In this document: positions 28,872-50,394 of the stretch, piece by piece
Layout of the letters: each line of letters begins with the position of its first letter
Numbering within the stretch: position 1 is the first letter of the stretch
NCBI GenBank assembly: GCA_020746835.1
Contig: JAGPNK010000006.1
Coordinates: 1,984,001-2,048,000 of the forward strand
Direction: 5' to 3'
Source: Stachybotrys elegans
Taxonomy: Eukaryota > Ascomycota > Sordariomycetes > Hypocreales > Stachybotryaceae
DNA: 64,000 nt
Notes under the pieces: model-generated
The model's database searches: none
The model's input: the letters and a program-made list of their open reading frames with translations, nothing else
What the model was told of the DNA's origin: nothing
Translations under genes and position numbers: made by a program

Positions 28872-30145
28872 TCAAACCATGCTCTTCTCCTGGTGGCTTG
28901 CAACCTCTACATCTCGGCTGACATGGATAACCCCCATGGGGATATTCTCCCAGTCGTGATGTTCCGCCCGGTTCGGCTCGTGGATGGCGGTGGTGCTGGA
29001 CGCATCAACCGCCTGCCACGTCTTCGCGTCAGAACTTTCTGCCCTGGAGCTTTTGGCTCTCGATCCAGACTTGACTCCCTGGTCCCCAGAGCTGCCGGTG
29101 CCATCTGAGGGTGTGAAGTACGCGTTGGAGGTGAAGAGGGAGGATAGGCTGCGGAACTTGATGGCGCGGGCGGCGAGCTGGTTGATGGCAGGGGCGCACA
29201 GAGCCAGGATCGCCAGAGGGGCTTCAAGCATGGAGAGATAGAGCAGAGGAACGAGGTTCCCTGAGAGAGTGGATGTGTTAGTAGATGGTCAAGAGAGGTG
29301 GGAGAGCGTATTTCCAGCAGATGGCTACTTACAGGAAGGATCCGCTCCAGGACCAGCCTCGAGCATGCTGGGATCACGGACTATGATGATGAATCTCGCA
29401 AAGGAGAGGAATGCCGAACTACATCTCGTGTCAGTCGCTACGTGTTAAGCAGGTCTCGCATCGGCACTTACACGTATCCCAAAAGAAAGACACCCAGGAC
29501 GGCGACTCTCTTGCGAGCGCTCATCTTCAAACGCCACGTCGCAGGGACCGGCAAGACCAAGATTACCAGATCCAAAAAGGCATTCGTAAAGGCCGACCCA
29601 ATGTACCAGCCCATCGAGTCCCTGCAGACGCCCGGGATCAAGGGGTTGACGTTCATCTCTATCGGGTCACAGAAGGTCCAGGGCACGATGCAAGTGACGA
29701 TCCACCAAGCCGTGCAGATGCCGCCGACGGCCCAGAGGACCTTGACAAAAGTCTTTGAGAGCCGAAAGATTCTGGCGTAAAAGGTGAGGGCGCTCGTCTT
29801 GATCATCCATATCGTTGACGAGTAGAGCACGAGGGCGACGCAATTGGTGACGGTGTTGCGAGGTACCAGCTCGAGCGGCGTCATCCACGTATGCTGGCCA
29901 AGACCAATCGTCGTCCAGTATATATTGACAGAGAGGAAAGCATTGGAGAAGAGCAGCGTGGCAATGATGGCCCAGTCATCCCACCAGATGTATAAGGACG
30001 ATGCAATGCGGCGGGACCAGAACCGCAGAAGCACGGCGAGCGTCGCAACGACAATGCCAACGACTGCGCAAGCAACCACCCCAGGACCACGATCACTGTA
30101 ATCTGGCGGTGGAAGAGCCGGGGGGCCGCCTGCGGGAGAGTCCAT
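28872..30145 (-). CDS. Pth11-like seven-helix membrane protein (fungal rhodopsin domain)
   Basis: Member of the large fungal Pth11-like family of putative G-protein-coupled receptors. Three exons: 29472-30145, 29333-29418, 28872-29260; donors GTAAGT, acceptors TAG and CAG, a CTAAC branch point visible in intron 2; product 382 residues. Short N-terminus, then seven hydrophobic segments; hallmark pieces are WWDDWAIIATLLFSNAF (helix 2 region), GLGQHTW, TNCVALVLYSSTIWMIKTSA, FYARIF and the conserved extracellular Cys pair. After splicing the sixth/seventh helices read VSAFLSFARFIIIVRDPSM and WNLVPLLYLSMLEAPLAILA. The cytosolic tail of about 100 residues is Ser/Lys-rich. The extracellular CFEM domain of classical Pth11 is absent. 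Ligand unknown. It lies about 2.2 kb from the end of the PKS gene; a link with the cluster is possible but unsupported. Confidence 0.88.
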
Positions 30146-31134
30146 GGTGAAGGGAGAAGTTGCACTTTCCTCGCACGATGCTGCACAATGGTGCGTATAT
30201 GCGTACCGTGGGGGCTTGCTTGGCGAGGTAGAGGGTGTAAGGTGTAGATATGGAAGCAGATAGGCAGATAGACGAGCGGACTAGGCGCGTGCAAGGGAGC
30301 AGAGAGACACGGACGGAACCAAGACACAACGAGCAACAAACAAGGAAGTGGATAGGTAGTCAGCTGGATGAAGAATGGCGCTGACACAATGTGTTCGTCA
30401 GAGACAGGACAAAGGAACACATGCTTGCCGCTCGATCCCAGGAGGCCGGAAGGAAAGACCCTTGTGTATATGAGGCTGACCATTCCTCACGATAATAGCC
30501 GCCCCGGCAAGGGTTTAATCCACACAGTCGGAGGATTCTTTGCTAGCTTGGCCTCTCCCCCCATCAGACCTAGTAGATATTGATTGCACAGCATCTCCGT
30601 GGTCAGGATTGCGTAGTAATCGGGCCTTCGTGTCTAGACCCCGAGGCTGGTTTGATTCCCTCGGCAAGGCACCCTTTCCAGCTCCTCCCTTCGCCCGGCA
30701 TGGGGACCGGAATGCACAGTCGGAGGGATGCATCATGTCGCAGTGGCGACATTCATGGTTTGTAATGACAGTCATTGCCAGAGACACACACAGAGAGAGA
30801 AAGAGGGGAATAAGTTCCGGGACGGCTGAAAGCCTGATGAGGGCGGGTGCATAATCTATGCGCTCCGTGTGCGGGAAGGGCCGGGTGCCCGACACGGCGT
30901 CGAGCTGAGCCAGGCGCCTTTTGCGTTCCCGTATCACCGGTTGTCGTCACCAATTCAGCCAGCTCATTCTCCACCCTCTGCAGAAGCAATCAGGCATGAG
31001 AGGGTGGGAATTGCTGTGTGGTGGCAGCTTACGAGCAAGACGGCGTTCGATTGTATCCGAATCCCGCGTGACAGGGGGTGGTCAAAAGCCCGCCCAGCTG
31101 GCCGCCTGTGCCAGGTGCATGGTAGAGACGAAAA

Positions 31135-31156
31135 GGGAGGGAGGGAGGGGGAGGGG
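31135..31156 (+). other. G-quadruplex-type tract
   Basis: Five G-runs of 3, 3, 3, 5 and 4 separated by single A bases. It lies about 1 kb upstream of the Pth11-like gene and about 1.2 kb past the end of the PKS gene. Confidence 0.6.
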
Positions 31157-31493
31157 TTCTGGGCTGCGTGAGATGGAGAGGAGTGTCGGCTGTTTGTCAT
31201 GGTGGATGCTTGAAGGATGGATGGGAAAACGAGGGGGACGGCAGATTGGCGAGTGGCGCTGTATAAGGCTGAGAGCGCTAGTTGGACGGGGGGCGGGACA
31301 CAGCGGGACGGGCAATCGATAGCAGTACCCCAGGGGGCGTGGGTAGGAGGGCGTGGTCTAAGCGAGGAAGGAAGGAGCAACTACTACACTCCTACTCCGT
31401 AGAGTGCATCGAATGCACAACGAAATGGGACGCTGACTTTTTTTTTTCTTTTTCTTCTCCCTCACCATATTCTGAGCTGAATCCTGATGGCAT

Positions 31494-31507
31494 CACACAC
31501 ACACACC
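31494..31507. repeat. (CA)7 microsatellite
   Basis: Seven CA units in the intergenic region beside the PKS gene. Confidence 0.85.
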
Positions 31508-32324
31508 CGTATTCGATGTGATATACAGGCAGCCATTTCCACCAAGCCACCCACTATTAGACCTAGCAGGGAATCACAGCTAGCCGCCGACGTCCCATCG
31601 AGAACACGAGCTACTGCAACCTCACCACATCTCTCTAGAGTCGGTGTGCGCCCACCTGCAGGCATAATCCCTACTACCTGTCTTACTCATACATCTCTAG
31701 CGGATCGTATCGGCAGAAAGAGCCCAGGCCCTTTCACCCGGGTTTGGCTCGGAGCTATGGCCTCCCAAAGCAATATCGGGTTCGCTCGATGGCTAGCGTG
31801 GGGGATGGTCTTACGATCTGGGCCGATAGCAGGAGCATGGCCGTCATATTGGGCATTTTTGGTATGTCGTCGTGATTGGAGGAACCCCCCCCCTCCGAAG
31901 CGGTGGAGTCTTGTGGGATTCGCGCATTTGGTGTCGAGAGCCTCGACCTGGTGGTCTGTCTATATCTGCCAAATGCAGCATATAGTGTCAAATTTCCTCA
32001 CTTGTCAGCACATACGACCATACCTACCAGAAAATACGGGGTCCCGTCCGCTCCCCCCTAGTCAAACTGGTAAGGGGCAGATTAGTAGTTGGGTCGGTGA
32101 CGACCAGCGAACACCGGCTGTTGTATGTTTTTTGCTGTTCTTGGATCTATTTTTGCTTCTCGCTCCATTGCTCACCCTATAGGTGCAGGACTGGGATGAT
32201 ATCCGTACCCCTTGAAGACTCTCGATCGTGACGCATCGTCCATACGGATACCCCTTGGTATGCAGATTGGATCACAAACCCACCAATGGTTCAACACAAA
32301 GATCATTCTACATAAGGGTGTAGA

Positions 32325-35300
32325 CTACCTCTTAGTAATTAAATCGAAAAGAAATTGATATCCCGGTCCAACTTGGCTGTCCCAAAGAGCATCACCAGGC
32401 TTCAACTCTACGTCGTGAATATGACCAACGCCCTCCAGGGGCAAGAATCCATGCCTGATGCCACTCCCTGAAAGCTCCCTCACAAACCTCTCTGCACCCT
32501 CGAAAGGTGCTATCTGGTCTGCTGTCCCGTGTATAACATATGTAGGGACCCTGTACTCCCCATCTCGCAGCCTGGCCAACGGGCTTATCGATGCAATCTG
32601 TGCAGGGCTGGGCAGCCTGCGCCAAACTGCATCTCCTCGAGACCCAGGTTCTGGGAGTCCATGAAGGAGAAGAGGAAGTCCGATTCCCTCTTTGAAAAGG
32701 GCCAAGACCAACTCGGAGCGAGGGTCTCCCGGTCGGACCCAACCGAGCTTGCTATCGTCTCCCATTGCACTCTGGGTGTAGCCGGTAATCTTCTCCAAGT
32801 CAGCATTCGCTCAAACAGCATCATCATATGGCCAGGTCTCACTGGGCTTCTTGGAAGAGCTTCCATGATTTGTTCCAGCCTCATCGAGCGACCAGGAACC
32901 TGTGGTAAACGAGCCTTGTCAAGTTCTGCAAAGCATCAGCACCCTCGCCGCACTTTGTTGTTGAGAACTGATCACTCACCTCCCGACTCAAAGTCAATAG
33001 GCGCGTAGAAGCTGAGCACCGCTGACGGAGCAGGCATACCCGCCACCTCTGCTGTCCAACCCAAGGTCATTGCCAAATGCCCACCACTTGACCACCCGAT
33101 AACAACAATCTTAGTCCCATCTACCTCTACGCCACGCCCAGCTGCAAGTCCTGGAAGCTCGAGCCGAGCCCAACGGTAGGCGTCGCATGTATCCGCGATA
33201 GGCCCGCACTCAAGAGTGACCTCAGGACACAGCCGATAATCGATACTGACAGGAAGGAAACCATTCTTGAGGAGATGCTCTGTTTGCGCAGGCCGAATGG
33301 CCTTTCGCGATAGCGTCATGTGGCCTCCACCATGTATCATCAGAGCTATAAAACTGTGTTAGAAGATAGGCTTGGGTACCATGTAGGTATAGGTGTAGTA
33401 GCTCTCCTACCAATAGGCATAGCCTGTCCTGGATTCACCACTGGGAAATAGACATCTGCTTGGATCGGAATGCCGCTCACCTCCTTGTAAATCATCGTCT
33501 CCAGCTTGTAATCAGCGCCGAAAGCCGATTCGGCTCTCTGCTCCGGCTTGGACGTTTTGGGAACATCCCACTTCTGGTTACAGGCCACCAGAAGCTGCTG
33601 ACTGTTCGATTCAGGCGTGGTTCCTCGAGAATAGCTGAAGGAGGCATAGCCGGCTTCCTGAAACGTCTTCATCCAAGCCTCTGCAGGCTGCAGTGGATAT
33701 GCCGTGCGATTCTCGGCGAGCCACCACCCATCAAGCAGGCCAAAACATATGTCGTACCAGTCGATCAAGCAAGTGACTTCTGATAGAACAATGAACCCGC
33801 CTGGAGCCAATAGTTCTCCCAAACGACGACAGGATGCGGTGCGATTGGTTGTTGCGTGAACACAGTTGGCACTGACGACGATATCGAACTTTGCCCGTAA
33901 TTCGGAAGGAACTTCCTTCTCCAGGTTGAAGGTGGCGTACTGCATCCAAGGATACTGCTTGAACTTGTTCTTTGCCTTGGCCACGAGACTACTTGAGATG
34001 TCGGTAAAGGTATACTCGACAGCGATGCCCGAGGAACGGAGAACCTCAATCAGCCTCCCAGTCGTTCCGCCTGTCCCAGCTCCGACTTCAAGGATCCGAG
34101 CTGGTCTGTCTTTGTGAGACTCTAGCATCAACTCGAGATAGATGCAAAGTTGCTCCGTCAGAGTAGCCATCATAGGAGACTGACTGTAAAAGCCCTCCAT
34201 GATTTTCAACGATTCCAGCGTACCAAACATGACGGCAACTGCGTCGACCTTGCCGCTCAAGCAGTCGGCAAGCTTCGGCCCAGTAAGGCCGATGAGGTTT
34301 GCTTCGGGTTGGTAATCTGGAAATCTTGCCTCGAAGTCTGCTTGGAGGGACTCGGCTGACTCGCCACCAATGATGCCATCAGTGCGAATTACATCGTCAG
34401 TTCTCTCATCAATGGCTACGAGATCATGGCTGCAAAGAATGCCCCAAAGCCTCGAGATGAGCTTGTTGTACTTTTGAACCTGATGAGAAACCTGAGGGAC
34501 TACTTCCCCTGATCCCAACTGTCGAAGATCGACCCCGAGGGCAGCGAACGCCTCCACAATATATGCAATGAGAAGTTTGTCTTGAAATGGTGCAACCTCG
34601 GACCAATACCCAAGGAATCCCTTGCATGTTGCTGACGTGTCAAAGAACGAGTCGGAGGCTGCCAATGTGTGAAAGGGGTTGGGACCCCCAAGATCTCTTG
34701 TCCTGTCCGGTATTATACTGGCTGGCGATGCCTGCTTGGGGGGAATGGCATCGGCCGTACCTCGACCAGGCTGCTGGATAGAGATCATAGACATCAGCTC
34801 TGCTACTGTTAAATCGGTTAATTGCGCGTCTAGTTTGACGGAAAACTGCTCTTCAAGTTCATGCTTCAAGTCTACCACAGACAAGGAGTCAACGCCGAGG
34901 TCTGCCAGCACCACTCCAGGCTGAATGTCTGTGGCCCTGACGCAAGAGATGTCGGCCAATATATTTAAAAACTTGGAACCCTTGTCAGAATAGTCGGCAT
35001 TGCCATTATGCAAATCGGCAGGGGATTGAATGCGGCCATTGGGATTCAGGGGTGTTACTTGGGAATGTTGACGTGGTCTTGTCCCTTGGATGGTGGGCTT
35101 GGAAGCGCCTAGTCTTTGGTAGAGATGTTTCAGGGTACAGTTGACCAACTCAGTCGAGTCGATGATAAGACCAAACTTGGAAGAGAGTTCTCCAACCATC
35201 TCGACTGCCGCCAACGAGTCAAGCCCCAAGTCAGAGAGAACCGCGTCTTCGAGAATCTCAGCATAGGAGACACCCGTGTACTCCGAAACCATGTCTCTGA

Positions 35301-38300
35301 GTCTGGAGCAAGAGTCGAGAGCTGTCCTTTCGTTGTGTTCAGAGGAGGGCGTGGCGATCATCTCGCTCGGTGCATTGGACACAACATCTTCCTCTGCCCT
35401 GAGCATCCACTCTGATCCAATGCGGCGCTCCAAACCACCATTAGCCGAGTCGAGTGCTTTCTCAAGCTTCGATATGAGAATCGTGTTGAACCGACAGCCG
35501 CCTAGCATTGCTACAACCCCCCCGTCGGGAGCGGTTACGAAGACATCGCCAACCGGCTGTTGCGTGTTATCAAACTTGGCATACACCTTCCATTGCGTCG
35601 CCTCATCCATCTTGCAAGCAGAAGATATCACGCCATAATCAAGTCCAACCATGACCATAACTTCGTCTTCCGAGACAAAATCGCTGCTGTTCATAAGCAA
35701 CCCTATCACTTGGATGAAAGCGTCCAATGTCACAGCATCAAGAACCCTCCATGCTGTGCTTTCTTGGCGGCTTGGCTGTACTGACGGTATACTTATTGTG
35801 CCCGCGGCCTCACTCTCGTCCAAAATCACTGACTGAATGCCCTGAAAGAACACAGCATAGTCCACCACACGAGAAAAGAGTTTGTATGCCTTCTTGCTCG
35901 TCATTCGCGTCACTTCCACTCTTGATTCGATCTGCTGGGAGAAGTGAGAGACAAGTCGATGAAAGGGGTCGAGAAGAGATTTCCCTGTGACTGAGATGAT
36001 ACCGCTTCCATGAAGCGTCTCTCTTGAGCGCGATGCGCCTGGGACCGTCGTGCGCAGGGTGAACTCCCATGAGTCTTGGTCGGGACTTTGCTTGACTTGC
36101 AGGAGTACCTCGCCCTGAGGTTTGACCCCGAGTGCGGCATGGAAGTGGAGCTTCTCAAAGACGAGGCTGCTACTACTTGTCCCAAGATCACCACGGAGAT
36201 GTTGCAGGGCCATAACGACACACTCCATGTACATTGAAGCCGGACATAGCGGTCTTGATCGTACCTTGTGCCCGCTGACGATCTCAACGAACCGTCGGCT
36301 TTCTGTGTTGATAGCAAATTCTGCACATCTCGTGTGCTCGTCGAATTCTGTCTTGATGGAAACGAGCTGGGGCGGCGAGACTGGCTGCTGTTGGCAAGCT
36401 TCTGCTGTAAGCTCCCTAGAAAGCTTCTGCTTCATTTCAGCAGCTCGGTCAATGTTAGGCAACCAATGCCGTATTTTCTCAAACTGATAAGGCGGTAGCC
36501 ATATAGGTTTGGCAAGACGGTGCTCATGAGACATGAACCCCCATTGAGTCAGTGATATGCCCTCTTTCCACAAGGCACAGATTGCATCCCCGATGCAGTC
36601 GGAAGGATGAGTCTTTCCTTTTGTCCTCAAAGATTGAAACACATGCAAGGCGGGATCGCGGCAAGCATTCTTTATCATGGCTGTGATAGGCGTGTCGATT
36701 CCCGCTTCCAACCAGATACAAGAACCCAGAGAATCCTCGAGTCTTCGCACGGCCTCAAAGAAATAGACTGGTTGCCTCGCATGCGCCGAGACACTGTACT
36801 GTTTGATTGACCAAATCTTTTGCTCCATGCAAGACTCCAGCGGAATAGTCGGTTCATTCCATTGTAGGGTCCCACAGATGTCAGCCAACTCCTCGAGAAT
36901 AGGCTCGGCGAGTACGGAGTGAAATCCGTGTGTAGTGTCAAGCCTCTGAGATCGAATCTTTCGAAGATCTGGTTCAACACCCAGGAGCCCTTCAACTGCT
37001 GCAATTGCATCTTCTGTCCCCACAATGACTTGTGAATTGGTTGCATTATGGCATGCCACCTCGAAGTTGGGTTGCATTAGATCTGAAGGCCCCCGGTTGT
37101 GCAATGTAGACGTGATGAGATCAAGTTCTTTTAGCGTGCAATTCAAGGCGAGCATCGAGCCCTTCTCAGCACCCCATTTTGTCTCAATGAGACTTCCACG
37201 TGTGGCAACCAGTTTGATAGCATCGGGGAGAGATAGAACACCAGAAACCGCAAGCGCAGTCAGTTCGCCAAGGCTATGTCCGATAACAACATTGGGTTTC
37301 AGACCAGCATCTATCCAAGTTCGTGCGCAGGCATATTGTACCGCAAACTGACTGCACTGGAGAGTGGTAACGCTGGTAGAAGGATCGCTATGGATGAGTG
37401 ATGGAAGAATTGAAGGAAACCCCAGGTTCCTGAGCTCCTGGTCACAGCTATCGAGGTGATGCCGAAAGACAGGGAAACCATCGTACATAGATTTGTCCAA
37501 GGAAACCCTTTTAGAGTGTTGTCCACTGAATGTGAGTATTATGGGCTTCCGCGATGGACTGGTCTTGAAGAAATCCGATGCTCCCAGAGAATCGAGCTGT
37601 TTCTTAGCATCCCCAATCCCCTTTGCCATTATGCTGACCGCATACTCGTGTTTCCGTCTTCGCCCATTCAACGTATAAGCCAGATCCCGAAGGTCGATGT
37701 TGTCGCCGTTTCTACCCAAATGAGCAGAGACAGCTCTGATATTATCAGCTAAGCTCCCCTCTGAGGAAGCACTGATACAAATAGGAAACGCAGTATTCCT
37801 AGGCAAGCCTGCATCAGACTCCTCCCTGACCGGCGGGTCACAGCACAGCAATGCGCAGTTCGAGCCCGCAGCTCCATAGCTATTCACAAGAGCGGCTTTC
37901 AACTGAGAGTTCCAAGGCTGGGTCTTCTTCGGTATAGCAAGACCATCGCTGGCTAGGGGCGCAATCTTGGGGTTGAGAGAGTAATGGTTTGCTTGCTGAG
38001 GAATCGCGCCAAACTTGATCATGGCAAGAATCTTCATCAAGCCCATCACACCAGCTGCTGTCTCACAATGCCCGATGTTCCCTTTGATAGAGCCGACATG
38101 AAGAATCTCATCTCTTGAGCGATTGCCGAATACGGCTCGGATGCTGTCCATCTCCAAAGGATCTCCTGCTTGAGTTCCAGTCCCATGGGCCTCGACATAG
38201 GTAACTTGTCTCGGTTCTATACCAGCTTGCTTGAGAACCTTGCTATAGAGCTTCTTCTGTGCTGCGGACTCAGGAACAGTGATAGAAGTAGAAAGACCAC

Positions 38301-40263
38301 CCTGGTTGGTTGCTGCACCCGCAATCACGCCCAGTATTGCGTCACCGTCTGCGACAGCTTGCTTCAGTGGCTTCAAAACAACCAATCCTCCGCCTTCAGA
38401 GCGGCAATATCCATCTGCTGAGGCATCAAAAGGCTTGCATTGGCCAGTGGGACTCAAGAAACCGGCCTTGCCTAGATCAAAGTAGTTGTTCATGCCCGCT
38501 ATCACATTAACGCCTCCAGCCAAGGCCATCCGACACTCTCCAGCTTGGATCGCTTTGCAAGCCCGGTTTATGGCGACCAATGATGACGAGCAGGCTGTAT
38601 CGAGTACTTCTGCGGGGCCTGTCCATCCATAGAAGTGGCTAAGACGACCACACAGGAACGCTCGAATGGTGCCAGTGGCTGTATATGCCGTGGGCGTATG
38701 CGCATTGGTGTTGTCCAGGTATTCGACAAGGCTGGCTCCAATAAAACAGCCAACATCATCTCCATCTTGCCTTTTATGTGTTGCCAGATACCCAGCATCG
38801 TCCAAGGCTTCAACAGAGAGTTCGAGGAGGAGGCGTTGCTGGGGGTCCATGTTCATGGCCTCGCGAGCATTGATGCCGAAGTAAGAGTTGTCAAAGCAGC
38901 GGACATCATCAAGAAAATTGCCATAGAATTTGCGCTGGCTGATGAAGCTGCTAGACTGAGACGCCCTGAAGCTACCATAGATATCAAAGCGGTCAGATGG
39001 GATCTCTGAGTGAAGGTCCATTCCATTCTTGAGCAGATCCCACAATTGCTCGATGCTCCCTGCTCCCGGCAGGCGACACGATGCTCCAACAACCGCAATG
39101 GCATCGGCGGGGAATTGGTATTGGGTAATTGGTGAGGACATCTGCCTATTAACATTGCTTATAAGCTGGTGTGCCTCGGTTTTGAACGCCTTGTACGTGG
39201 TAGAGCGGAACGGTGACATGGGAACGCAGTCGTTGAGACCAAATATGACAAATTCGTTGACACTTCGTTTGGATTGTTGGATATCCTCAGATACCCGGGT
39301 GAGGAGGGTGTACCAGTCGCATCTCGATGCTAGAATGGTCGTGATTATCTCGTCGGTCAACGGGCAGTCCAGGATATGACCGTTCTTGTTCGACCTCACG
39401 GGTACCCTGAGCTGCGTGTATTCTGGTAGCTGCAGCAAGGCATTGTCCCGACACAGACCGCAGAGTTCTGCCGCAAGCCGCGTATTCTCTGGATTGTGGA
39501 CCTTGCCACGTATGTCCATCTTTTGGACCTGAAGACCCTCTTCTCGAGCATGATGGAACAATTTATCAAGCTGATTCGCAGGCCCGACGATACTGATGGA
39601 TCTTGGATCGGTGATTGCTGAGATGTATGTACCCGGGAAGCGAAGAGTCAGCTCTTGACCTTGGCCCTCGCGCTTGAGTCGAAGGGCCAGCGTCGTCGAG
39701 CCAGACCCATTTGTATCGTCGGCGAATTCGCCATAAGCACCAATGCCGACGAGAAGACGCAGACATATGGCGGCATTTTCAACGACCTGCTCAACGCTGT
39801 GGGCACAGCCGATGGCAATAGCTGAAGGCAGGCCACCGCAGTATCCCTGCAAGCCACCAGCACCTCCCACAGCGGATAGGAAGTCGTCATGGGAAAGCTG
39901 GTGAAAGTCGAGGTAGCGCAGGTACTGGCCAATCTGCAGTATGACCAATAGAGGCAAGGCCACAATGCCGGAGCGCACCGCTGCAAGTGGCCCAGAAATG
40001 CCATACAGAGCCCAGTCCCGAAGTACGCGGATGTATTCCGGTCCCTGGGCAAGGGCTTGGATCTCTGGCCGGGCGGAAGCGAAGATGGACCATACTTGAT
40101 TTGTCTCGAGATCGGCCACCTTGGCGAGAAGAAGCCTTCCGAGTGGATTGGCAGCGAGGAAGGCGTGCAGCGCAGCAAGATATTCCTCGTCTGGTGCTCG
40201 GCTCTGCGGGCAGAAGAAGGCCGCTGAGAGACGGCTCTCGTCGGTCTTCTTGTCCAGCTCCAT
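32325..40263 (-). CDS. Non-reducing polyketide synthase, SAT-KS-AT-PT-ACP-ACP-CMeT-esterase
   Basis: Iterative type I PKS expected to build a C-methylated, orsellinate-type aromatic acid. Four exons: 33411-40263, 32980-33345, 32843-32925, 32325-32792; 2589 residues. Domains by rough residue: SAT 15-370 (GYCGGL, Cys142); KS 386-810 (DTACSSSL Cys558; EAHGTGT His693; NIGHC His732); malonyl-CoA AT about 907-1210 (GHSLGE, Ser997); product template about 1305-1610 ([14 protein letters not shown], His1332; Asp1514); ACP1 (GLDSL, Ser1683); ACP2 (GVDSL, Ser1793); C-methyltransferase about 1860-2235 ([19 protein letters not shown] His2136; SEVT Glu2162); C-terminal alpha/beta-hydrolase release domain about 2258-2589 (HGGGH oxyanion hole, GWSSG Ser2370, Asp2526, His2558/2560). 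No ketoreductase, dehydratase or reductase domain. The 3' splicing is inferred: donors GTAGGA, GTGAGT, GTGAGA; the last acceptor is GAG at 32793, and a CAG 21 nt downstream is also in frame. Same order as AusA/MpaC-type synthases. Shares a promoter with the P450 gene. Confidence 0.95.
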
Positions 40264-41154
40264 GGCAGAAAAGGTGGATGCTGACCTGCTTTGACGATGC
40301 TTGCTCTGCTGCCGAAGGACGGATACTCTGGTATTGTAGTTGCTTCATCCAACGGTCAAGTTCCGACTGAGGATGTGGTATTATCGCCTCGGACTTTTGG
40401 CCCTTTCCTCAGCCGAGGCACACCGGAGGGAATTGGGCACCCGCAATCACGTCGCCTCGCCTAACAAGCCGCGGGCACTCATCGAGACCAACACTGCTAT
40501 CATTGTAAGACACCGACAAGCAGGTAGGCAGGGCGTTGGTTGGTTGGTGTTATCTCCAAGGATGCACTTTCTGACTAGATGGATGTTGTTGGTGAAGAAG
40601 GCAGTACAAGACCCCTGCTCCTTCCTGGCTAATCCCACACTCCCATGGGGTGCAGCTCATAGTACCACTCCATGGAGTGGCTCACATAATATTCTCACCT
40701 CGACCGTCTGCCTCGTTTAGTCAAACCATCAACTTGACCTAGTATGTATGTACCTAAATCGGGATGAGCTGGTCTAGGCGTATGAATCCCGAACGTTGCT
40801 GCCTTGCTCCACCATGATTGTAACACACACACATGGTTACATCCAACATCCATTCCGATAGCGTCTCCGAGCTTACGAAGAGCTTCAGAGACATGCATTG
40901 CATGACGAAGACAGGGCCTTGTTGGTTGTTCCTCACAGGCAGTATCCGTCCTCCAATCATGTCGCTTCGGTCATGCGTTTGATGGTCTAGAACGTCGCGG
41001 GGTTCGTTCATCGTGGCAATGCCCAGACATTCCGGCCTCCAACTGGCGAGACTGTTCGTCGTATGCATCGAGGTGTACCTTCTCTTCCATATACTACTCT
41101 GATTTGGCTTCTTAGGACGGGAAGATCAAGATAGAGCTTCCGGTGGCCGTGACA
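40264..41154. promoter_or_regulatory. Bidirectional promoter between PKS and P450 genes
   Basis: The 891-base gap separates the divergent start codons of the PKS (minus) and the P450 (plus), so it must hold both promoters. It contains an inverted repeat GCCTCGG (40386-40392) / CCGAGGC (40413-40419) with a 20-base spacer, about 125 bases from the PKS start; CGG half-sites in inverted orientation are the usual target type of Zn2Cys6 regulators. That use is inference. Confidence 0.55.
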
Positions 41155-42868
41155 ATGACCACAAGATATCCCCTTCTGCCAAGCCTGCGCTTAGCGACCG
41201 GTATCACTATTGGAGCTCTTTTCTCGGTAAGGGACACCCATAGCCTCGGATGCAATTGCTAACAATTTTGCAGTATCGCGTGATATCGGCAGTCTACCGC
41301 CTCTACTTTCATCCTCTGGCCAAGTACCCAGGGCCAAAGCTCTGGGCCATCTCGCGTATCCCCTGGGCATGGCATCTCATTCGTGGCGACCTGTGGCAAG
41401 TCCTTGGACGCTTTCACGAGAAGTACGGCACCACAGTACGGATTGCCCCCGATGAACTCACCACCATCTCGCCCACAGCTTGGACAGACATCTATGTCAC
41501 CAAGCCACTGCTCCCCAAGGACCCTCACAGCCAGACCCCGCCTCTCAATGGCGCTCATTCTCTCTTCACTGCGCCAGATAATACTCACAAGCGCATCCGC
41601 ACGACTCTGGTGAATGGCTTCTCGGACAAAGCGTTGAGAGAGCAGGCACCCATCATCGAGGCACACGCAAATAACCTTGTGTCTCGGCTACATCGTGAGG
41701 CTGCACGAGCAGCTCCCGGGGGCTCCATCGATATACAAAAGTTGTTCGGCTATGCTACGTTTGACATTGTAACTGACCTTAGCTTCGGCGAGTCCGTCCG
41801 TGGCCTAGAAGACGACAATGAGCATGCCGAAATTACAGCCTTCTTCTTCCATGCCAAGTTTGGGACCATCCGTAATTGTCTCAGTCGCTTCTCTCCGCTC
41901 GATATTCTTCTTGGGCTGTTTCTTCTGAGCATATCGCGCAAAGCACGCGAGAGAAACTGGCGTCTAACCACGGAAAAGATCGACCGTCGCCTATCCAAAG
42001 GCGACATGACGGGTGTGCGCTCTGACTTCATGACGCCCGTCATCGGAAGAATCGATGAGAGCGGTACAAAGGGCATCACCAAAAAAGAGGTGGTGACCAA
42101 TGGCCTGGCATTTGTCATTGCCGACTGTCAACTCACTACAGTCGCTTTAGCCACGAGCACCTACCTGCTGCTGCGGGATCGGCCGAAGTGGGAGCAGCTC
42201 ACAAAAGAAATTCGCGGTAGGTTTAGCAGCCATGAAGAGATTACTGTACACTCTTCCCAGGGACTGCCGTATCTTGAGGCTGTCATAAACGAAACGCTCC
42301 GTCTTCATCACCCGACCCCTATCAGCCTACCGCGATCCGTACCCCCGGAGGGGAGAGTCATTGACGGAGAGCACATACCCGGAAACGTGAATATATCCCG
42401 TCATCGCCACCCAAGGCATAGCTGACAGCTAGTGAAGACTGTGATCGGTATCAATCTCCAGAATATACAAAACGACCCAAGCCTTTGGGAGGAGCCACGA
42501 GTCTTCCACCCAGAACGCTTTCTCCCGGCTACAGATGAGCGCTACGATGGGCGTTTCGACAAGGACGTCAGGGCTGCATATGTGCCGTTCTCAACAGGGC
42601 CACGCAACTGCCTAGGCGCAAGGTAAGAAGACTCTCCTTCGACCCCTCCCCCTGTGGTTTTCCGGCTTCAGTATGCTGACGCACTGCTATCGAACGCCAC
42701 AGGGTCTTTCTTGCACAAGCAAGAGTGATCCTCGCGAAACTCGTTTGGAGCTTTGACTTGAAGATGGGGAGTGTGGGTGATGATTGGTTAGATCAAAAGG
42801 CGTATCTCGTCTTTGAGCCCAAGCCGCTTCCTGTAAAGATTCTCCCACGGCAAGATACAGTAGCATAG
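41155..42868 (+). CDS. Cytochrome P450 monooxygenase
   Basis: Membrane-bound class II-type fungal P450, likely oxidising the PKS product. Four exons: 41155-41226, 41274-42386, 42429-42622, 42703-42868; product 514 residues. The first exon gives the N-terminal anchor (RYPLLPSLRLATGITIGALF), followed by YRLYFHPLAKYPGPK, the usual start of the catalytic part. K-helix ETLR at 364-367 (ExxR); PERF motif as HPERFLP; haem loop FSTGPRNCLG with Cys456. The I-helix reads ADCQLTT (residues 307-313), so the positions of the usual acid and Thr are Gln310 and Leu311, which is atypical. Donor/acceptor pairs are GTAAGG/CAG, GTGAAT/CAG and GTAAGA/CAG; the short second intron (42 nt) is the least certain. It is divergently transcribed from the PKS, supporting a shared pathway. 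Confidence 0.92.
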
Positions 42869-42990
42869 GACACGTTCAATTCAATTTAATGGACCAAACC
42901 TCTAATTCTGAGGCCTGCTTTTAGATTCACTCTGGCTATACTCTATTCGGGTGCACCTCCCAAGTAATATAAGATAATCTACGCTATATT

Positions 42991-44659
42991 TTACAAGATG
43001 GGGTTATAGAAGGAAAATGAAGAATTTGGGTCGTATCTTCTCTTCAACTCCCTTAGCTTCGGGAGCTTCCGAGACGAGTACCACGCTTTGGCTGGCTCAT
43101 CTCCGTGCGCAAAGTTGACGTAGACAGATAGGTCTCTTCGTCCACTGCCTCGCTGGAACCTGTCGCGTATCTCCTTGCCAAACTCGTTTACGGAAGAAAC
43201 TTGGGATGGATCCATAGCGAACCCATCTATCTGCCTGTTTGATGAATAGCACTCATCAGTAATTTTTCCTGCGGATGTGAAAACAGCAGCACCTACACAA
43301 AAGCGACAGCATCGCGATGAGGAAAAGCGGAGGAATCATCCGAGAATTTTGCGAAGCCGTATTGTGAATACTGCGCCCAGGCCACAAAGAGCGACTGCAA
43401 GCTGGGCTCGGCCGCCATCCTCCTCTTCATGTAGTTGACCACGCTCGCAATGTTGGCAACATCGATTCGGTACAGGTTGAGTGACTGAGGAACATAGAGC
43501 GAGCCACCTCGGCAACCCGCGTACGGCAGACCATACACAGCTACCCGTGGAAGATCAGACCAAGTGACAGTCGTGATACTTAGATTGATTGGTCCGAGGT
43601 CCAGGAAGGGCTTGATCAACCGTCTGCCTCTTGCCTGGGGGCCAGCGTAGATGAAGTTGGCGATGAGAACAATATCCCCAATGGTGGCATTGTAGCTGAT
43701 GGAGAACGTGATGCTCAATTCCTTGGGCTGGTTTCCTGCAAAGGATCTGGCCAGCTCCCACACCGAGCCGTTGAGCGCCCCGGGAAACATCATATCAGCG
43801 TTCATAGCCATGCCACCATTCGTAGCAGGATACACTCGATAGGTCAGGGAGGTTACGACGCCAAAGTTGGCACCGGCTCCCTTTATGCCGTAGAACAGGT
43901 CGCGGTTCTGGTTCTTGGAGACGGTGACAATGTCGCCTCGGCCATTCACCATCTGCACGGAGAGTAGGGAATCGGATTGAGTGCCGTGGAGCCCAGAGTA
44001 AGGTCCGATGCCACCTCCGAGTGTTGCACCAGAGTATCCAATGCAGATGCATTGTCCCACGGCTATCAGCAGTGTAAGCAAACGAGAAATAGATGGAAAT
44101 ATAGGGCTTTTGACGTACGGATCTCCCTTCCGACAGCGTGCAAGGCGTCGACTATGTCTGCAGTCTTAACAGCGCCGCCCGTTGTCATGGTATTAGAGGC
44201 AGTATTCACGGTTATCTCGTCAAAATATCCCATGTCTATCGAGATGCCCTCTTCCAACCCACCTAGGGTACTCGAATATCCATGGCCTCCGCCTGTTGCG
44301 AGGAACGGGACGTCGTTGGTTGAAGCATATCTGATCTATAGCGCCGTAGTTAGAAGCTGCTTCATGTACCCGGGAAATTATTGTCTGCGATGACTGTATG
44401 AGTACATTGAACTTACAATTGCCTGGACATCCGTGACTAGACGCGGCTTGATTACCATGATATACTTTGGGGGCGCTGTAATTGCCCATCGCGGAGTGAA
44501 GCCACTAGGCCATGTCTGATTGCTGCCCACAACCTCAATATCGGAGTCAGGAGAAATTAGACTCTGCAGATCGTGAGCCATTTGCTCGGGTAATAATGAA
44601 GCCCAGACCAGGGCGGACAGGTTGGCTAGCACCCAGAGCACCGGGATTTGAAACCCCAT
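42991..44659 (-). CDS. Secreted FAD-linked oxidase, BBE / PCMH type
   Basis: Flavoprotein of the berberine-bridge-like family, which oxidises alcohols, amines or phenols with transfer of electrons to O2. Four exons: 44417-44659, 44119-44335, 43297-44062, 42991-43234; product 489 residues. Signal peptide MGFQIPVLWVLANLSALVWA. PCMH-type FAD domain from about 60: WAITAPPKYIMVIKP, then ATGGGHGYSSTLGG with His99, and VGQCICIGYSGATLGGGIG with Cys158. The His-Cys spacing of 59 fits bicovalent FAD attachment as in glucooligosaccharide oxidase. Further: GAGANFGVVTSLTYRVYP. The last splice uses GTAGGT/CAG and restores FVQIDGFAMDPSQV, followed by the BBE C-terminus KLRELKRRYDPNSSFSFYNP. The conserved start ATG is at 44659; a GTG nine bases upstream is not used. 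Its 3' end lies 122 bases from the P450 3' end (convergent), and its promoter is shared with the decarboxylase gene. Confidence 0.92.
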
Positions 44660-45289
44660 GATAGGCACACGATGCTTGAGAAGACGGAGGTATATTCAAG
44701 ATGCTAGAGACGGGGAGTATGAGAAGCAGTGAGTGATGAGCAAGCCGATGTATCCGTGTCCATGATGGTCCAATCCTTTGCAACATGCCAATCTTCGTCC
44801 TCACATATTTAAACACAACGGATTGGCTGATCTGGGTCTCAAGCCAAGCGAAAAATCAAATCCATAATGCTTACAGGCACCAACGATCTGTATAGGAGCC
44901 TGTTGGTCATACTAGGTTGGCCAGCGGGAGCACGTTGGGTGTCGCGCCGGCAAGGCTGACTGAAGGCCAGAATTGGCCGAACGTGAGTGCTTATCCCATG
45001 TTGCCGTGCTAGGATCTATCCATAGCACGAGTGCGGGTCATGGAATCTCCCATCTCGTATTCGCACGTGGTGGAAGATAGACTCCTTCACTGCTACCCAC
45101 ACAGGTATTATGCGAGAGTGAGGTTTCATCGCCGAGGTGGAGCCACATCACGGGATACCGGATGAGCTCGAACCCGTTTCTGACGTGCCAGCCGTCCGGT
45201 ATGCTCTCGAGGATGAATAAGAGGGGTGGGCAGGTCGCCCGGCTAAGAGCGCGTAGTGCTCGCTCCTCAAGCAGCTGGACGTAGACAAT
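44660..45289. promoter_or_regulatory. Bidirectional promoter between FAD-oxidase and decarboxylase genes
   Basis: The 630-base gap between divergent start codons. It contains GCCGAGG at 45131-45137, close to one arm (CCGAGGC) of the inverted repeat in the PKS/P450 promoter, but here as a single copy. No other strong element was recognised. Confidence 0.5.
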
Positions 45290-46409
45290 ATGGCGCCTTG
45301 CAAGATTGATGTCCACCACCACATTATCCCCCCAGCCTTTGCCAAGGGTAAGTGACATTGTTTCTGTATTTTGGCTGCAAGAATGACCCGCCCGTATCTC
45401 TGGCTTCTTTTATCTGACTGGGCATAGCATGGAGCGAGGACCCCAAGCAAAGCCAAGGCATGAAGCTGCCGCCGTGGACGCCTGAGCATAGCCTGGAGTT
45501 CATGAAGCGCCACGACATTGGCTTCTCCATTGTGTCTCTGGGAGCGCCAGCCACCAGTATCGGCAGTGGCGAGTCAACTACCAGCTTCTGCCGCCAAATG
45601 AACGAATACTCTGCCGAGCTGTGCAAGCAGTACCCGGACAAGTTTGGCTTCTTCGCCACGCTCCCGTCGCTGGAAGACACCGAGGGCTGTATTGGCGAGA
45701 TCCGGTATGCTGTGGAGGAGCTGGGAGCCAACGGCGTAAATATCCTCACCAGCTATGGAGACAAGTACCTAGGTTTGTTTCATGGCCTGGCAGCACGCCT
45801 AATGGATGTGAGGCAGCTGACCAACTATAACGGCTAGGCCATGCGGACTTCCAACCAATATGGGACGAGCTGAACCGGCTAAAGACGGTAGTGTTTATCC
45901 ACCCTGGTATCGAGAGTCCCATCGATGCCATTACAGAGCCAGGCATGCTACCCAAGCCCATCTTCGACTGGACGCATGAGACGACGCGCGCCGCCATCCA
46001 TCTCATCTCGACCAACACGCTCAAACCCCGCCCGGGCGTCAAGGTGATCCTGCCGCACGGAGGTGGGACGTTGCCGTACATTGCCAACCGCGTTGCGCAG
46101 CTCGGCAGTGCGTTCAAGCTCTTTGCAGACGGGAAGACGGCAGAGGAGTTCCTGGAGGAGGTTCGTGGCTTCTACTACGATGTGGCGTTTGCCGGGTACG
46201 AGGAGCCGCTGGGGCTGCTGCTCGGGTTTGTGAAGCCGGGCCATCTCCTCTACGGCACCGACTACCCGTTTGGAAGGGAGGACATGGTGAAGCAGCAGCT
46301 GGACGCGCTGGGCAAGGTGCTGGAGGTGCAGAGCGAGGGCGTGGCCCAGAGTGTGTACCGTGACGCGGCAGCACAGCTGTGGCCTGGTTTGGCGAAGCTA
46401 GAGCGGTAG
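45290..46409 (+). CDS. Amidohydrolase-2 family decarboxylase (ACMSD / OrsB-like)
   Basis: Metal-dependent TIM-barrel enzyme of the family that includes ACMSD, gamma-resorcylate decarboxylase and the orsellinate-cluster protein OrsB; expected to decarboxylate an aromatic acid. Three exons: 45290-45347, 45428-45772, 45838-46409; product 324 residues. The first exon supplies the metal ligands (KIDVHHHIIPPAF), the second GFSIVSLGAPA and YSAELCKQYPDKFGFFATLP, the third VVFIHPG, VILPHGGGTLPYIANR and GTDYPFGRED (metal-binding Asp), i.e. all expected active-site strands in order. Borders: GTAAGT/TAG and GTTTGT/TAG; the second donor is weak but the join YLG-HADFQPIWDEL is a family motif. The placement beside a PKS that makes an aromatic carboxylic acid fits a decarboxylating step. 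Confidence 0.9.
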
Positions 46410-47860
46410 GGTGCGTGTCAGCAGTAATCATGCATTAATTATGAGACATATTGAATCGTACCGTGTCAGACGGGCATGGGATGCACCACCATTGGCTAGT
46501 GAGAGGGTGTTGGCGATAACACAAGCATCCATCCGTCCATGGCCCAGTCCAGAAGAGAGGGGTTGGCAAACTGCCATGCAATTGCCTGCCTGCCAGTGCA
46601 GAGGAGAGGAAGGGCAAGGAAGGCAGTGGGGCGATCTGCACCTTCTCAGCCGCTAAGCCGGGGGTGAGATCCTTCCCCGCCCTAACCGAGTTGAGTCTAC
46701 GTACACCCCTCCATGATACGGTTCACACCCTTCTCCTCCTCACCTCGCCTGCCACCCATCACCAACACTGTTTCCTCCGCCACCAAGGTCTGGATTCTCA
46801 GCTCGCCAGTCTACGTTGGCCCGAACTCCGTCCAGCGGCTGTGTCAACTTATTCACCGTATTAATGCGCCGAAGTTACATCGTTGCACTCATCTTCCCGG
46901 TCCTGGTGGACGTAAGTCGGCACAGCCCATCTCGTCCAACTGCAACCGCAAAGGATATGCCGGCCATGTTACTTGGCTTTCCTAGTAATACTCACGTAAT
47001 AGTCTTCAGCTCTCGCTCTCGCTCTCTTGCACCATCGGGTTCGTCTGTGGGTAGTCTTACTCTTCCCTCGGGCAGCTACTGTGCCGTGTCCCGCTGCTAT
47101 CCCCAAGGCTATCTGAGTTAACCCAACCCAACATCGACTGTGATACTGAGCTAGTTAGCTAATAATGAGCGTCTTCTCCTGGTGATGGTCTCATGTGATG
47201 GCCTCCAGCACAGATTTCTGTGAGCATCCTGTCCAATGTGTGAGGCTGTATGTATAAGAGCTCAACAGTTGTTCAAATGGCAGGGCTTTCATCGTTCCTC
47301 GGCTAATGGAATCCTTCCTTCATCGGCGAGCGCTATCCTGCTTAGGAACGTCGCCTGTATCCAAAAGGCCCTTACTCGGCGCCTTCACCCAGCACCCTCC
47401 CTCAACAATGAGTCCGTAAAAGTATGCTTCGCCAAGGCTTCTCTGCATATGTTCCCCTTCCCCTGATTCATAGTTCGCTTTCCACGCATGGTGGCGTTTG
47501 CCACGTGCGGAATCCTGCTCCCATGTGGTTGTGATGGTGCCTTGCTTCGAGGTGAGATTGAGATTCAGATCTCTGCAGCCATCCCTACAATTACCGTATC
47601 CGGAGTCCTGGTACCAATAGATCTGATGCCAAAGAGTATATCTGGTGACCCAGTGCGTATGCTTCATCATCTGAGCTTCTGTATAAAATAGCGCACAGCT
47701 AAGGGAAGAGGCGAGGAAGGAGTCACGGAGTGCATGGTACTTGTCTGCTATACGGATGTGTGTATTTGGTGGTGATTCAGTCCATCGCCTTCCCTTCAGC
47801 TGCTTCCATATATTCTCATGGTCCCAGACTCTCAACCAACTGTCGCCACGAGACATCATC
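46410..47860. other. Intergenic, 1.45 kb
   Basis: Between the decarboxylase and the SMP-30-like gene, both on the plus strand. One copy of CCTCGGC at about 47297. A 180-codon antisense frame (47320-47862) was rejected. No regulator gene was found here. Confidence 0.55.
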
Positions 47861-48907
47861 ATGAAGCTCGTACCCTATTCCAGCTTTCACCATCTCTTTG
47901 CCAGGTTGCTGGTCGTTGCACTGGCGGTGCTCCCAGCGTCCAGCCTCGGCATCCCTCCTCATCATCAACTTGATCCACGCGACAAGTGCATAGGCTCGGC
48001 GTCTCTCATCTTCAACTTCACCGATAGCACTTTTATCGAGAACCTCCAGGTCCTGCCGGATGGCAGAATCCTCTTCACAACGCTCGACACGGGCATTCTC
48101 CGAGTCATAGACCCGAGAGGCCGAGATCCCTCTCCCAGGCCTCTCGTCTCTCTGCCGTCTACCACAGGACTTAGCGGTATCGCGCGCCTGTCTGAGGACA
48201 TTTACGCAGTCACTGGCGGTGTACACACGCTGTTTGCGTTTGAGCCCGGCTCGATGAGGGTGTTTATCGTGGATGTCTCCTCTGGGCGCATCCGCGACAT
48301 CATTGGCGTGCCCAAGACTGCCATGATGAACGGACTTGTCGCCCTTCCAAACTGCCGCACGACCCTTCTCAGCGCCGACTCCTTGACGGGCAGCATACTG
48401 CGCATCGACCTGTCGACCCGCAGAGTCGACGTGGCCTTCTCTGACCCGCTGCTAAATTCCACCAGCGCCGAGGTCCCCCTGGGTGTCAACGGCTTGCGCA
48501 TCCGCGGCCAGTACCTCTACTTCACCAACTCAGGAGCCGGTACCTTCGGTCGCGTGCCCATTGATGACAGAGGCAACATGGCAGGCAAGGTCGAGATCGT
48601 AGCCCAGCTCTCGGGCAGAGTCAGCTTTACGAATGCCTATGACGACTTTGACTTTGATCGACAAGGCAACGCCTATTTGGCTCTTCACTCGACGACTGTA
48701 TCCCAGGTCAGCCCATCTGGAAAGCAAGTGACATTTGCTGGATGTGCTGGTGATGATGTCTGTGATCCAGCCTTCATCTTTCGGGAACCGACGTCGGTGG
48801 CCTTGGATAATGACGGCAAATCGCTCTACGTTTCGACGGGCGGCAACACCGGGATGGGGTGCTCTCAAAACTTGGGCGGTCAATTGATCAGGGTGCCTCT
48901 AAGCTGA
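47861..48907 (+). CDS. Secreted SMP-30 / gluconolactonase-like beta-propeller protein
   Basis: Intronless, 348 residues from the ATG at 47861; the frame is open 40 codons further up, but the signal peptide (MKLVPYSSFHHLFARLLVVA...PASSLG) begins at this ATG. The mature part has repeated propeller blades of the SMP-30/lactonase type: ENLQVLPDGRILFTTLDTG, GLSGIARLSEDIYAVTGG, MNGLVALPNCRTTLLSADS, GVNGLRIRGQYLYFTNSG, AYDDFDFDRQGNAYLALH and EPTSVALDNDGKSLYVSTG. The alternating N/D ligands (Asn in MNG and VNG, Asp in YDDFD) fit the Ca2+-binding centre of this family. Four Cys residues late in the chain suggest disulphides, in keeping with secretion. Such proteins recur in fungal metabolite clusters; possible roles are lactone opening or substrate binding. 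The exact reaction is not known. Confidence 0.85.
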   Translation: MKLVPYSSFHHLFARLLVVALAVLPASSLGIPPHHQLDPRDKCIGSASLIFNFTDSTFIENLQVLPDGRILFTTLDTGILRVIDPRGRDPSPRPLVSLPSTTGLSGIARLSEDIYAVTGGVHTLFAFEPGSMRVFIVDVSSGRIRDIIGVPKTAMMNGLVALPNCRTTLLSADSLTGSILRIDLSTRRVDVAFSDPLLNSTSAEVPLGVNGLRIRGQYLYFTNSGAGTFGRVPIDDRGNMAGKVEIVAQLSGRVSFTNAYDDFDFDRQGNAYLALHSTTVSQVSPSGKQVTFAGCAGDDVCDPAFIFREPTSVALDNDGKSLYVSTGGNTGMGCSQNLGGQLIRVPLS

Positions 48908-49538
48908 GGATTTTTATTTCATTTTATTTTTATTGCTTTTTATTATTATTGTACATACATAATGGTCTCAGACCATCCATGTGTTGTTTCGCATTTCAGC
49001 GTGCATGTGCTAAACTCGGCTCGTCGCCTCTTCTCTCCTCTCCCATCGTGTCAGCAAACTTGCTTCCTGTGTGACGGGGCTCATTTTCGCTTCTGCCACG
49101 CCCGTCCGTGTCGCATGTCTTTCTTTCTTGGGCGTGACCAAAGTAATGCAAACTCTCGGAAAACTGCCGTGATGCAAGGCAGACTGGGGTTCGGAGCCTG
49201 ATCTGCGTCCGAAATCCGCAGATGCACTGTCACTGTCAGAGTAACCTTATTGTCCAGGTCAGAGGAGAGGGGTGTCTTTTTATTTCGTTTGATCGTATTA
49301 CTCGAGTTGATGCTTTTATTGGTAGAAAAAATAGGCAGAAGTTATGCAGCTATCTCGATTTTGACTTTACAGGGAGTGGTATGTGAACAGTGCAAGTGCA
49401 ATCTGACGTTCCGGAATAAGGCAACGCCATGTGACAAGCTTGTTTCCGTCATCACAGCCGCCCTCCAACGTCCGCATAGCTGCCGCATCACATCATCAGT
49501 AGTCTCGATCCATCACCCGAGCATAGGTTCAGGTCGCC
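48908..49538. other. Intergenic
   Basis: 3' region of the SMP-30-like gene and promoter of the NAD(P)-binding protein gene. The first 60 bases are T/A-rich, as expected of a 3' untranslated region. Nothing else seen. Confidence 0.6.
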
Positions 49539-50394
49539 ATGAAGCTCATTATCGCCGGCTCTACCGGCCTCGTCGCCACCGAAATCCTTCGCCAGGCCTT
49601 GTCCATTCCCGCCATCACGTCCATCGTAGGCCTCGCCCGCCGCGAGACCAGCGTCCCCGACAACCTCAGGCCCAATGCCGACCCGTCCAAGCTCAAGTCC
49701 GTCGTCGTGTCCGACTTTGAGAATTACCCCGACACGGTGAAGCAGCAGCTGGCTGGTGCCGATGCATGCATATGGTGAGTCGGAGATAAAGCTGCGCGCC
49801 CATTTGAGGTCAGAGAGCGCCCTCGCTAACATTGCTGGTAGGACCATTGCTACAACGCCCGATCAGCTCCGTTCTATGACGTCTGAGCAGTCCAGAAATA
49901 TTTCGCTGGATTACATGGTCTATGGCCTAGAGACCATGGCCAAGGTCGCCAACTCGCCCTTCCGCTTCGCATACATCAGCGGCGCCAAGTCGGAGCGGGA
50001 TCAGACCAAGCGACCCATGGTACTCCCGGAATTCTGCTTGATGCGTGTACGCAGACCCCCCTCTATCCATACTGTTTCATTCGTCGCTAACCCAAGATAA
50101 CAGGGCGAGTGCGAGAATCGTGTGCTGGACTTTGCCAAGCAGTCCAACGGCCGTGTCGTGGGCGGCATCGTACGTCCAGGTGTCATTGATGCGCCGGGCC
50201 GATCGAACTTCATGTTGACCTTTGCTGGCGGCCTCGTTCGCGCCGTCATCGGCCTTCCAAAATGCCATGTAACCGAGATCTCTGCAACGCTCTTGGAGTC
50301 GTGCATCACAGGTTTCGAAAAGGAGACACTACTAAACGAGGACCTAATCCGTATCGGCCAGAAGTCCATGGCGGAGCGCAAAACAGGTCCATAG
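49539..50394 (+). CDS. NAD(P)-binding Rossmann-fold protein (atypical SDR / NmrA-like)
   Basis: Three exons: 49539-49774, 49842-50046, 50104-50394 (GTGAGT/TAG and GTACGC/CAG); product 243 residues. The N-terminus MKLIIAGSTGLVATEILRQA holds the GxTGxxA dinucleotide motif. Spliced segments give ADACIWTIATTPDQL, FRFAYISGAKSERDQ and PEFCLMRGECENRVLDFAKQ, followed by VVGGIVRPGVIDAPGR, which together match the short atypical SDR / nucleoside-diphosphate-sugar epimerase-like proteins of fungi. No Tyr-x3-Lys active site is evident, so it could be a reductase with an altered centre or a redox sensor. Whether it belongs to the cluster or to its right flank is undecided. Confidence 0.85.

Follow-up and report, generated by a model that had tools for sequence, protein, structure and literature searches.

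A likely Tals-type depside gene cluster in Stachybotrys elegans, with a duplicate elsewhere in the genome

A run of genes around a non-reducing polyketide synthase (NR-PKS) in Stachybotrys elegans raises the question of whether these genes belong together, where the group begins and ends, and what it would make. The genes lie in a window of 64,000 nucleotides (contig JAGPNK010000006.1, positions 1,984,001 to 2,048,000; C56:1984001-2048000 in our numbering), for which a sequence-only reading had listed an NR-PKS, a cytochrome P450, a secreted FAD oxidase, a decarboxylase, a secreted propeller protein, and a small NAD(P)-binding protein as a candidate cluster. We placed the introns of the gene models by hand and searched all 61 contigs of the 43.4 Mb genome for paralogs (own-genome searches). 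The reading that we favor, at somewhat better than even chances, is that of a depside cluster of the type of the Tals cluster of Talaromyces sp. HDN1820200, duplicated within the genome. Stated more broadly, the cluster probably makes and oxidizes a small aromatic, depside-like compound.

A sister cluster was found at C21:95001-155000 (loci L025-L030), where a rhodopsin-like gene, an NR-PKS, a P450, a BBE-type oxidase, a decarboxylase, and a propeller gene occur together. The window propeller has five other paralogs in the genome, the C21 copy being the best (47% identity, 249 bits; next 131). The best other own-genome matches of the P450 (52%, 477 bits; next 203), the BBE oxidase (258 bits; next 194), and the rhodopsin-like gene (270.6 bits; next 97.9) likewise lie on C21, among 95 and 90 listed matches that include the genes' own exons and 83 that include the rhodopsin-like gene itself. 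Under a crude assumption of independence, the chance that three further best paralogs would fall in one given 60 kb is about 3e-9. Order and strand are common to both clusters for the PKS (-), P450 (+), BBE oxidase (-), and decarboxylase (+), and the three introns of the P450 coincide in aligned position and in phase between the window gene and its C21 paralog (C21:131283-133001). For the NR-PKS, C21 gives the highest own-genome identity in the KS part (57% over residues 212-701 of the window protein), and the match runs on through the methyltransferase and esterase parts at 31% (residues 1742-2063), 40% (2065-2285), and 43% (2284-2582); a PKS on C61 matches the methyltransferase region of the window PKS at 34%. 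The proposal of a co-inherited NR-PKS cluster is thus borne out by the paralogous set on C21.

The same comparison delimits the cluster. When open reading frames (ORFs) of at least 40 amino acids were compared with the 60 kb of C21, 41 of the 966 in the window matched at E<=1e-4, all of them within 29,242-48,904, a count that includes antisense ORFs of the same genes. Because the best C21 paralogs, the limits of similarity, and the gene order coincide, the cluster is, by sequence comparison, the segment of 28.9-48.9 kb with six genes. One of the six is a membrane protein with a Fungal-rhodopsin domain (28872..30145, -; exons 29472-30145, 29333-29418, and 28872-29260; PF20684, E 4.4e-37), which on this comparison is a cluster member that the sequence-only reading had overlooked. 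The small NAD(P)-binding-like protein (49539..50394, +; 243 amino acids, three exons), which that reading had counted in, retrieved no C21 match in the own-genome search, and since the similarity to C21 ends at 48904, short of this gene, it probably lies outside and was dropped as a member. Its Pfam match to NAD_binding_10 (20.6 bits) falls below the cut-off of 27.2.

The six genes named at the outset are all intact and lie close to where they had been placed: their spliced models stay in frame from the ATG to the stop codon, all 13 of 13 introns are GT-AG with lengths of 47-81 nt, and chance ORFs are ruled out by a 2332-codon open frame together with the active-site motifs. The NR-PKS (32325..40263, -; 2588 amino acids; exons 33411-40263, 32980-33345, 32843-32925, and 32325-32789) has the layout SAT-KS-AT-PT(DH-like)-ACP-ACP-MT-esterase, with two PP-binding stretches and HTH_51 plus methyltransferase detected by Pfam. 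The two carrier-protein domains (34783..35304, -) carry LGLDSL and LGVDSL, and the SAT, KS, ACP, MT, and esterase motifs are intact. Its C-terminus matches 5mpt, the methyltransferase of the citrinin PKS (E 3.8e-73), and also alpha/beta-hydrolase-fold-3 esterases, in agreement with the methyltransferase and esterase domains that had been proposed. Within the C-methyltransferase part (33643..34644, -), the residue at the position of CitS Val2101 is Tyr in the 5mpt alignment, and His in the C21 PKS when read by position. According to the available part of PMC11579551, this residue is Phe in synthases of dimethylorsellinic acid (DMOA) and Leu in synthases of 5-methylorsellinic acid (5-MOA), and it does not by itself fix the outcome of C-methylation. 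As Tyr is neither, neither the DMOA nor the 5-MOA mode is predicted for the window PKS. The DMOA-type meroterpenoid route, already disfavored in the sequence-only reading, was set aside on the same residue, and no prenyltransferase was seen among the part of the window ORFs that was scanned, as that reading had also held. The genome as a whole is rich in PKSs, with 99 ketoacyl-synthase matches, a count of pieces that includes many split exons rather than a count of genes.

The decarboxylase (45290..46409, +; 324 amino acids; exons 45290-45347, 45428-45772, and 45838-46409) falls in the Amidohydrolase-2 family (PF04909, E 1.6e-30), and its relatives include the gamma-resorcylate decarboxylase 2dvt (E 7.8e-19). 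The BBE-type FAD oxidase (42991..44659, -; 489 amino acids, four exons) combines FAD_binding_4 and BBE domains with His99 and Cys158 at the positions expected for bicovalent attachment, and it ends in FYN, which fits the C-terminal Y/FxN motif described for BBE-type oxidases (PMC11375781, in the part available); the earlier description of a bicovalent-type oxidase therefore holds. Its N-terminus and that of the propeller look like signal peptides, as judged by eye.

The P450 (41155..42868, +; 511 amino acids; exons 41155-41226, 41274-42386, 42438-42622, and 42703-42868; PF00067, E 5.4e-59) retains the ExxR, PERF, and haem-loop motifs. The canonical P450 I-helix carries the motif AGx(D/E)TT, with an acid-alcohol pair. 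Both copies are without this usual pair, reading ADCQLT in the window and AGSYLP on C21, in an alignment that is ungapped there and that holds these two copies with no control P450. The chemistry of this P450 may therefore be substrate-assisted or non-hydroxylating.

The propeller protein (47861..48907, +; 348 amino acids, single exon) had been read as SMP-30-like. At a threshold as loose as E<=10 it matched no Pfam family; the C21 paralog scored 18.1 bits against SGL (PF08450), for which the cut-off is 26.3. A profile of the six own-genome copies retrieved EupfF (7x36, 2.5e-48) and PycR1 (7x2n, 7.8e-48) as the best solved relatives; 2p4o followed in third place (8e-40), and the top lactonase was far behind at 1.7e-5. 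The name SMP-30 lactonase was accordingly given up in favor of membership in the EupfF/PycR1 (hetero-Diels-Alderase) clan, to which the protein is related in sequence along the entire propeller, with cycloaddition as its predicted activity. In the pathways to tropolone sesquiterpenoids, EupF/EupfF catalyze hetero [4+2] additions (PMC8902786, PMC9503010, in the parts available); for PycR1, the same role was taken from the name of its pathway, and the PycR1 construct also starts with a signal-like stretch. An NCBIfam search with the propeller, its C21 paralog, the decarboxylase, and the NAD(P)-binding-like protein returned no match. Four of the six own-genome propellers have PKS sequence no more than 8 kb away (window, C21, C2, and C60). 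At C2:996448-1004389 (L032, L033), a same-clan propeller stands about 1.1 kb from a KS-AT-DH-KR-ACP PKS. At C60:1433925-1449933 (L039, L040), the propeller has as neighbors an ER-KR-ACP PKS piece, a P450, and two SDRs; within 70 kb of it no KS match was found, and this PKS is perhaps broken or intron-rich. For the C9 and C20 propellers, no KS match was found within 100 kb, and three and two neighboring ORFs, respectively, were scanned.

To place the gene set among known systems, we turn to the Tals cluster as described in the available part of PMC11944171. It comprises the nrPKS TalsA, the P450 TalsB, the hypothetical proteins TalsC and TalsD, the flavoenzyme TalsE, the decarboxylase TalsF, and the Diels-Alderase-like TalsG. 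Conservation in other fungi is said there to extend to five of the seven only (A, B, E, F, and G), and the structure of the cluster is presented as previously unreported. The cluster produces depsides built from methylated orsellinic acids. When its seven genes were expressed in Aspergillus nidulans, talaronic acids A and B were obtained along with 3-methylorsellinic acid, 4-O-demethylbarbatic acid, and CJ-20557, and co-expression of TalsA with TalsF turned talaronic acid B into A, so that TalsF decarboxylates a depside. The window likewise brings together an NR-PKS, a P450, an FAD enzyme, a decarboxylase, and a Diels-Alderase-like gene, a match by gene content, and neither cluster has a transcription factor. 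The Tals cluster has two additional proteins to which no function is assigned, TalsC and TalsD, whereas the window has one rhodopsin-like protein; neither a rhodopsin-like gene nor a sister cluster is mentioned in the available part of that paper. In a literature search that was not exhaustive, Tals was the only other instance of this gene core that we found, and with it the idea that the combination of genes was new falls away.

Other systems share less of the set. In the parts available, the dpe and dep genes (DpeA/B/D, DepH/G/F; PMC11320064) resemble the window in pairing a depside-forming PKS with a P450 and a decarboxylase (DpeD, DepF), but the genes listed for dpe include a tyrosinase and methyltransferases instead of a BBE oxidase or a Diels-Alderase-like propeller. 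Atr1 (PMC8262933, likewise in part) has the order SAT-KS-AT-PT-ACP-MT-TE, like the window PKS, and makes a depside of 3-methylorsellinic acid alone; it differs in that one ACP is listed and in its lichen cluster with a P450, an O-methyltransferase, and a transporter. Since Atr1 does this with one listed ACP, tandem ACPs are not required for a depside. A quinone of the gliorosein/aurantiogliocladin type was also considered and was dropped because the set contains no O-methyltransferase.

The Tals-type reading is favored because the window has the same five-gene core as a cluster that has been expressed in Aspergillus nidulans, because the SAT, KS, ACP, MT, and esterase motifs are intact and the genes are co-inherited on C21, and because the propeller profile is best with EupfF and PycR1 while BBE-like oxidases are known to form ortho-quinone methides (PMC11375781, in the part available). 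On this reading, with which the domain layout is compatible, the NR-PKS would make a C-methylated orsellinic acid and join two units as an ester-linked depside, from which the amidohydrolase would remove the free carboxyl. The P450, bound to the endoplasmic reticulum, and the secreted BBE oxidase would then oxidize the resulting methylphenol, the latter probably to a quinone or an ortho-quinone methide, and the secreted propeller would steer a (hetero-)[4+2] addition or a dehydration. The set would also include the rhodopsin-like membrane protein as a fixed member, for which a role in transport or trafficking is a guess. The methylated orsellinic chemistry followed by decarboxylation that had been proposed from the sequence is upheld by family membership and by the Tals precedent, but its decarboxylation of a monomer is not, TalsF having acted on a depside (PMC11944171, available part).

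Several observations weigh against this reading. The likeness to Tals is one of gene content, and we can call the window cluster Tals-type in that sense, its proteins having been compared with the five conserved Tals proteins by description. In the available part of PMC11944171, TalsE is introduced as a flavin-dependent monooxygenase but called an FAD-dependent oxidoreductase when the results are given, and the fold of TalsG is not named, so either may differ from the BBE oxidase or propeller found here. The PKSs of C34 and C9, which are intron-free, align with the window PKS at greater length (1442 and 1281 bits; 46% and 40%) than any single C21 piece. The nearest own-genome paralog of the decarboxylase is on C5 (C5:1053781-1054662, 64%), the C21 and C14 copies being at 43%, which suggests a mosaic origin of the set. 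The propeller has low identity to PycR1 and EupfF, whose tropolone quinone methide and humulene genes were not seen among the window ORFs scanned, and in a single-sequence search of solved structures both (1.5e-11 and 5.5e-9) are outscored by 2p4o (E 4.3e-18), a "hypothetical protein". A single-sequence structure prediction of the propeller gave a mean predicted local distance difference test score (pLDDT) of 37.5. Finally, no terpene or other partner for a cycloaddition was found among the ORFs scanned.

Two alternatives concern the product of the PKS. The synthase might hydrolytically free methylorsellinic acid, which the decarboxylase would turn into a dimethylresorcinol and the P450 and BBE oxidase into quinones or coupled phenols, with no depside formed. 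Its C-terminal domain is an esterase-type hydrolase that could simply hydrolyze, and free 3-methylorsellinic acid also built up in the Tals host; the products of that host were, however, mostly depsides, and the decarboxylase of this same-core cluster was shown to act on one (PMC11944171, available part). We consider such a monomer route unlikely. Just as unlikely, in our estimate, is a depside that the P450 closes to a depsidone or diphenyl ether, with the BBE oxidase and propeller acting later or hydrolyzing. The P450s DpeB, DepG, and MollD convert depsides to depsidones, and a PKS, a P450, and a decarboxylase form the core of dpe-type clusters (PMC11320064, available part). A P450 lacking the acid-alcohol pair would suit phenol coupling, but the window P450 is likened to these three by description, and the Tals products carry no ether bridge despite the presence of TalsB (PMC11944171, available part).

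The propeller invites a further alternative, that it is a lactonase-like hydrolase or an unrelated protein rather than a pericyclase, to which we give an appreciable chance that stays below even. Its residues E60, N210, and D261, which we take to be the SMP-30 metal site, are invariant in six of six own-genome copies, and its closest structure in the single-sequence search is the hypothetical protein 2p4o. Those three residues do not decide the function, however, because the printed PycR1 alignment carries them too, and the profile search ranks lactonases at 1.7e-5 against 2.5e-48 for EupfF. The clan of this propeller, that of the tropolone hetero-Diels-Alderases, might also point to a tropolone sesquiterpenoid-type meroterpenoid cluster. 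Such clusters have an aldehyde-releasing 3-methylorcinaldehyde synthase, an FAD hydroxylase, a non-haem iron oxygenase, and a humulene synthase (PMC9503010, available part). The window PKS ends in an esterase instead, and none of the other three genes was seen in the part of the ORFs scanned, the humulene synthase not having been searched for by sequence; we regard this reading as very improbable and rejected it.

Returning to the Tals-type reading, the C21 copy is not a plain repeat of the window. A domain scan there, covering 20 ORFs and one BBE piece of the 62 listed at 90 amino acids or more, identified in addition an AflR-type Zn-cluster regulator, a tannase-like gene, a highly reducing PKS, an SDR, and two MFS ORFs. 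The C21 NR-PKS has the layout SAT-KS-AT-PT-ACP-MT-esterase, with one ACP detected where the window PKS has two, and in its SAT the Cys motif is preserved as GYCAG; the highly reducing PKS stands between the central four genes and the rhodopsin-like and propeller genes. Because the adjacent genes of the C21 cluster add a highly reducing PKS, the C21 NR-PKS should take its starter from that enzyme. The C21 cluster is a candidate for a variant of this pathway that uses two PKSs.

Around the window cluster, the flanking ORFs include DnaJ-C28-like, ribosomal L28, WD40, and tryptophan synthase genes by Pfam, along with several others without a Pfam match, which agrees with the earlier placement of the cluster between conserved housekeeping genes. 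To its right are two ORFs without a Pfam match and a sugar-transporter gene (51536-52923, -; 54870-56192, +), and these have no C21 counterpart.

Clusters of this kind have been known as a gene set since 2025, through Tals, and the copy described here is well bounded and duplicated. A cryptic cluster thereby gains a named kind and a class of product that can be tested for, and its duplicate in the genome reveals which genes stay together, giving better borders than gene prediction, adding the rhodopsin-like protein, and arguing against the NAD(P)-binding-like protein. What this isolates is the question of how the P450, the FAD enzyme, and the Diels-Alderase-like protein act on a decarboxylated depside of the kind reported for Tals (PMC11944171, available part). 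A bolder and doubtful possibility is that the secreted BBE oxidase and the EupfF/PycR1-clan propeller form a transferable cassette, leading from phenol to ortho-quinone methide to cycloadduct with no terpene partner. It would have been duplicated as a stand-alone depside version with two ACPs in the window and as the C21 version, primed by the highly reducing PKS, with one, and the P450s of both, from a clade that would have lost the acid-alcohol pair by which oxygen is activated, may couple or dehydrogenate instead of hydroxylating. If the propeller is indeed a pericyclase, its clan would extend beyond tropolone-terpene chemistry.

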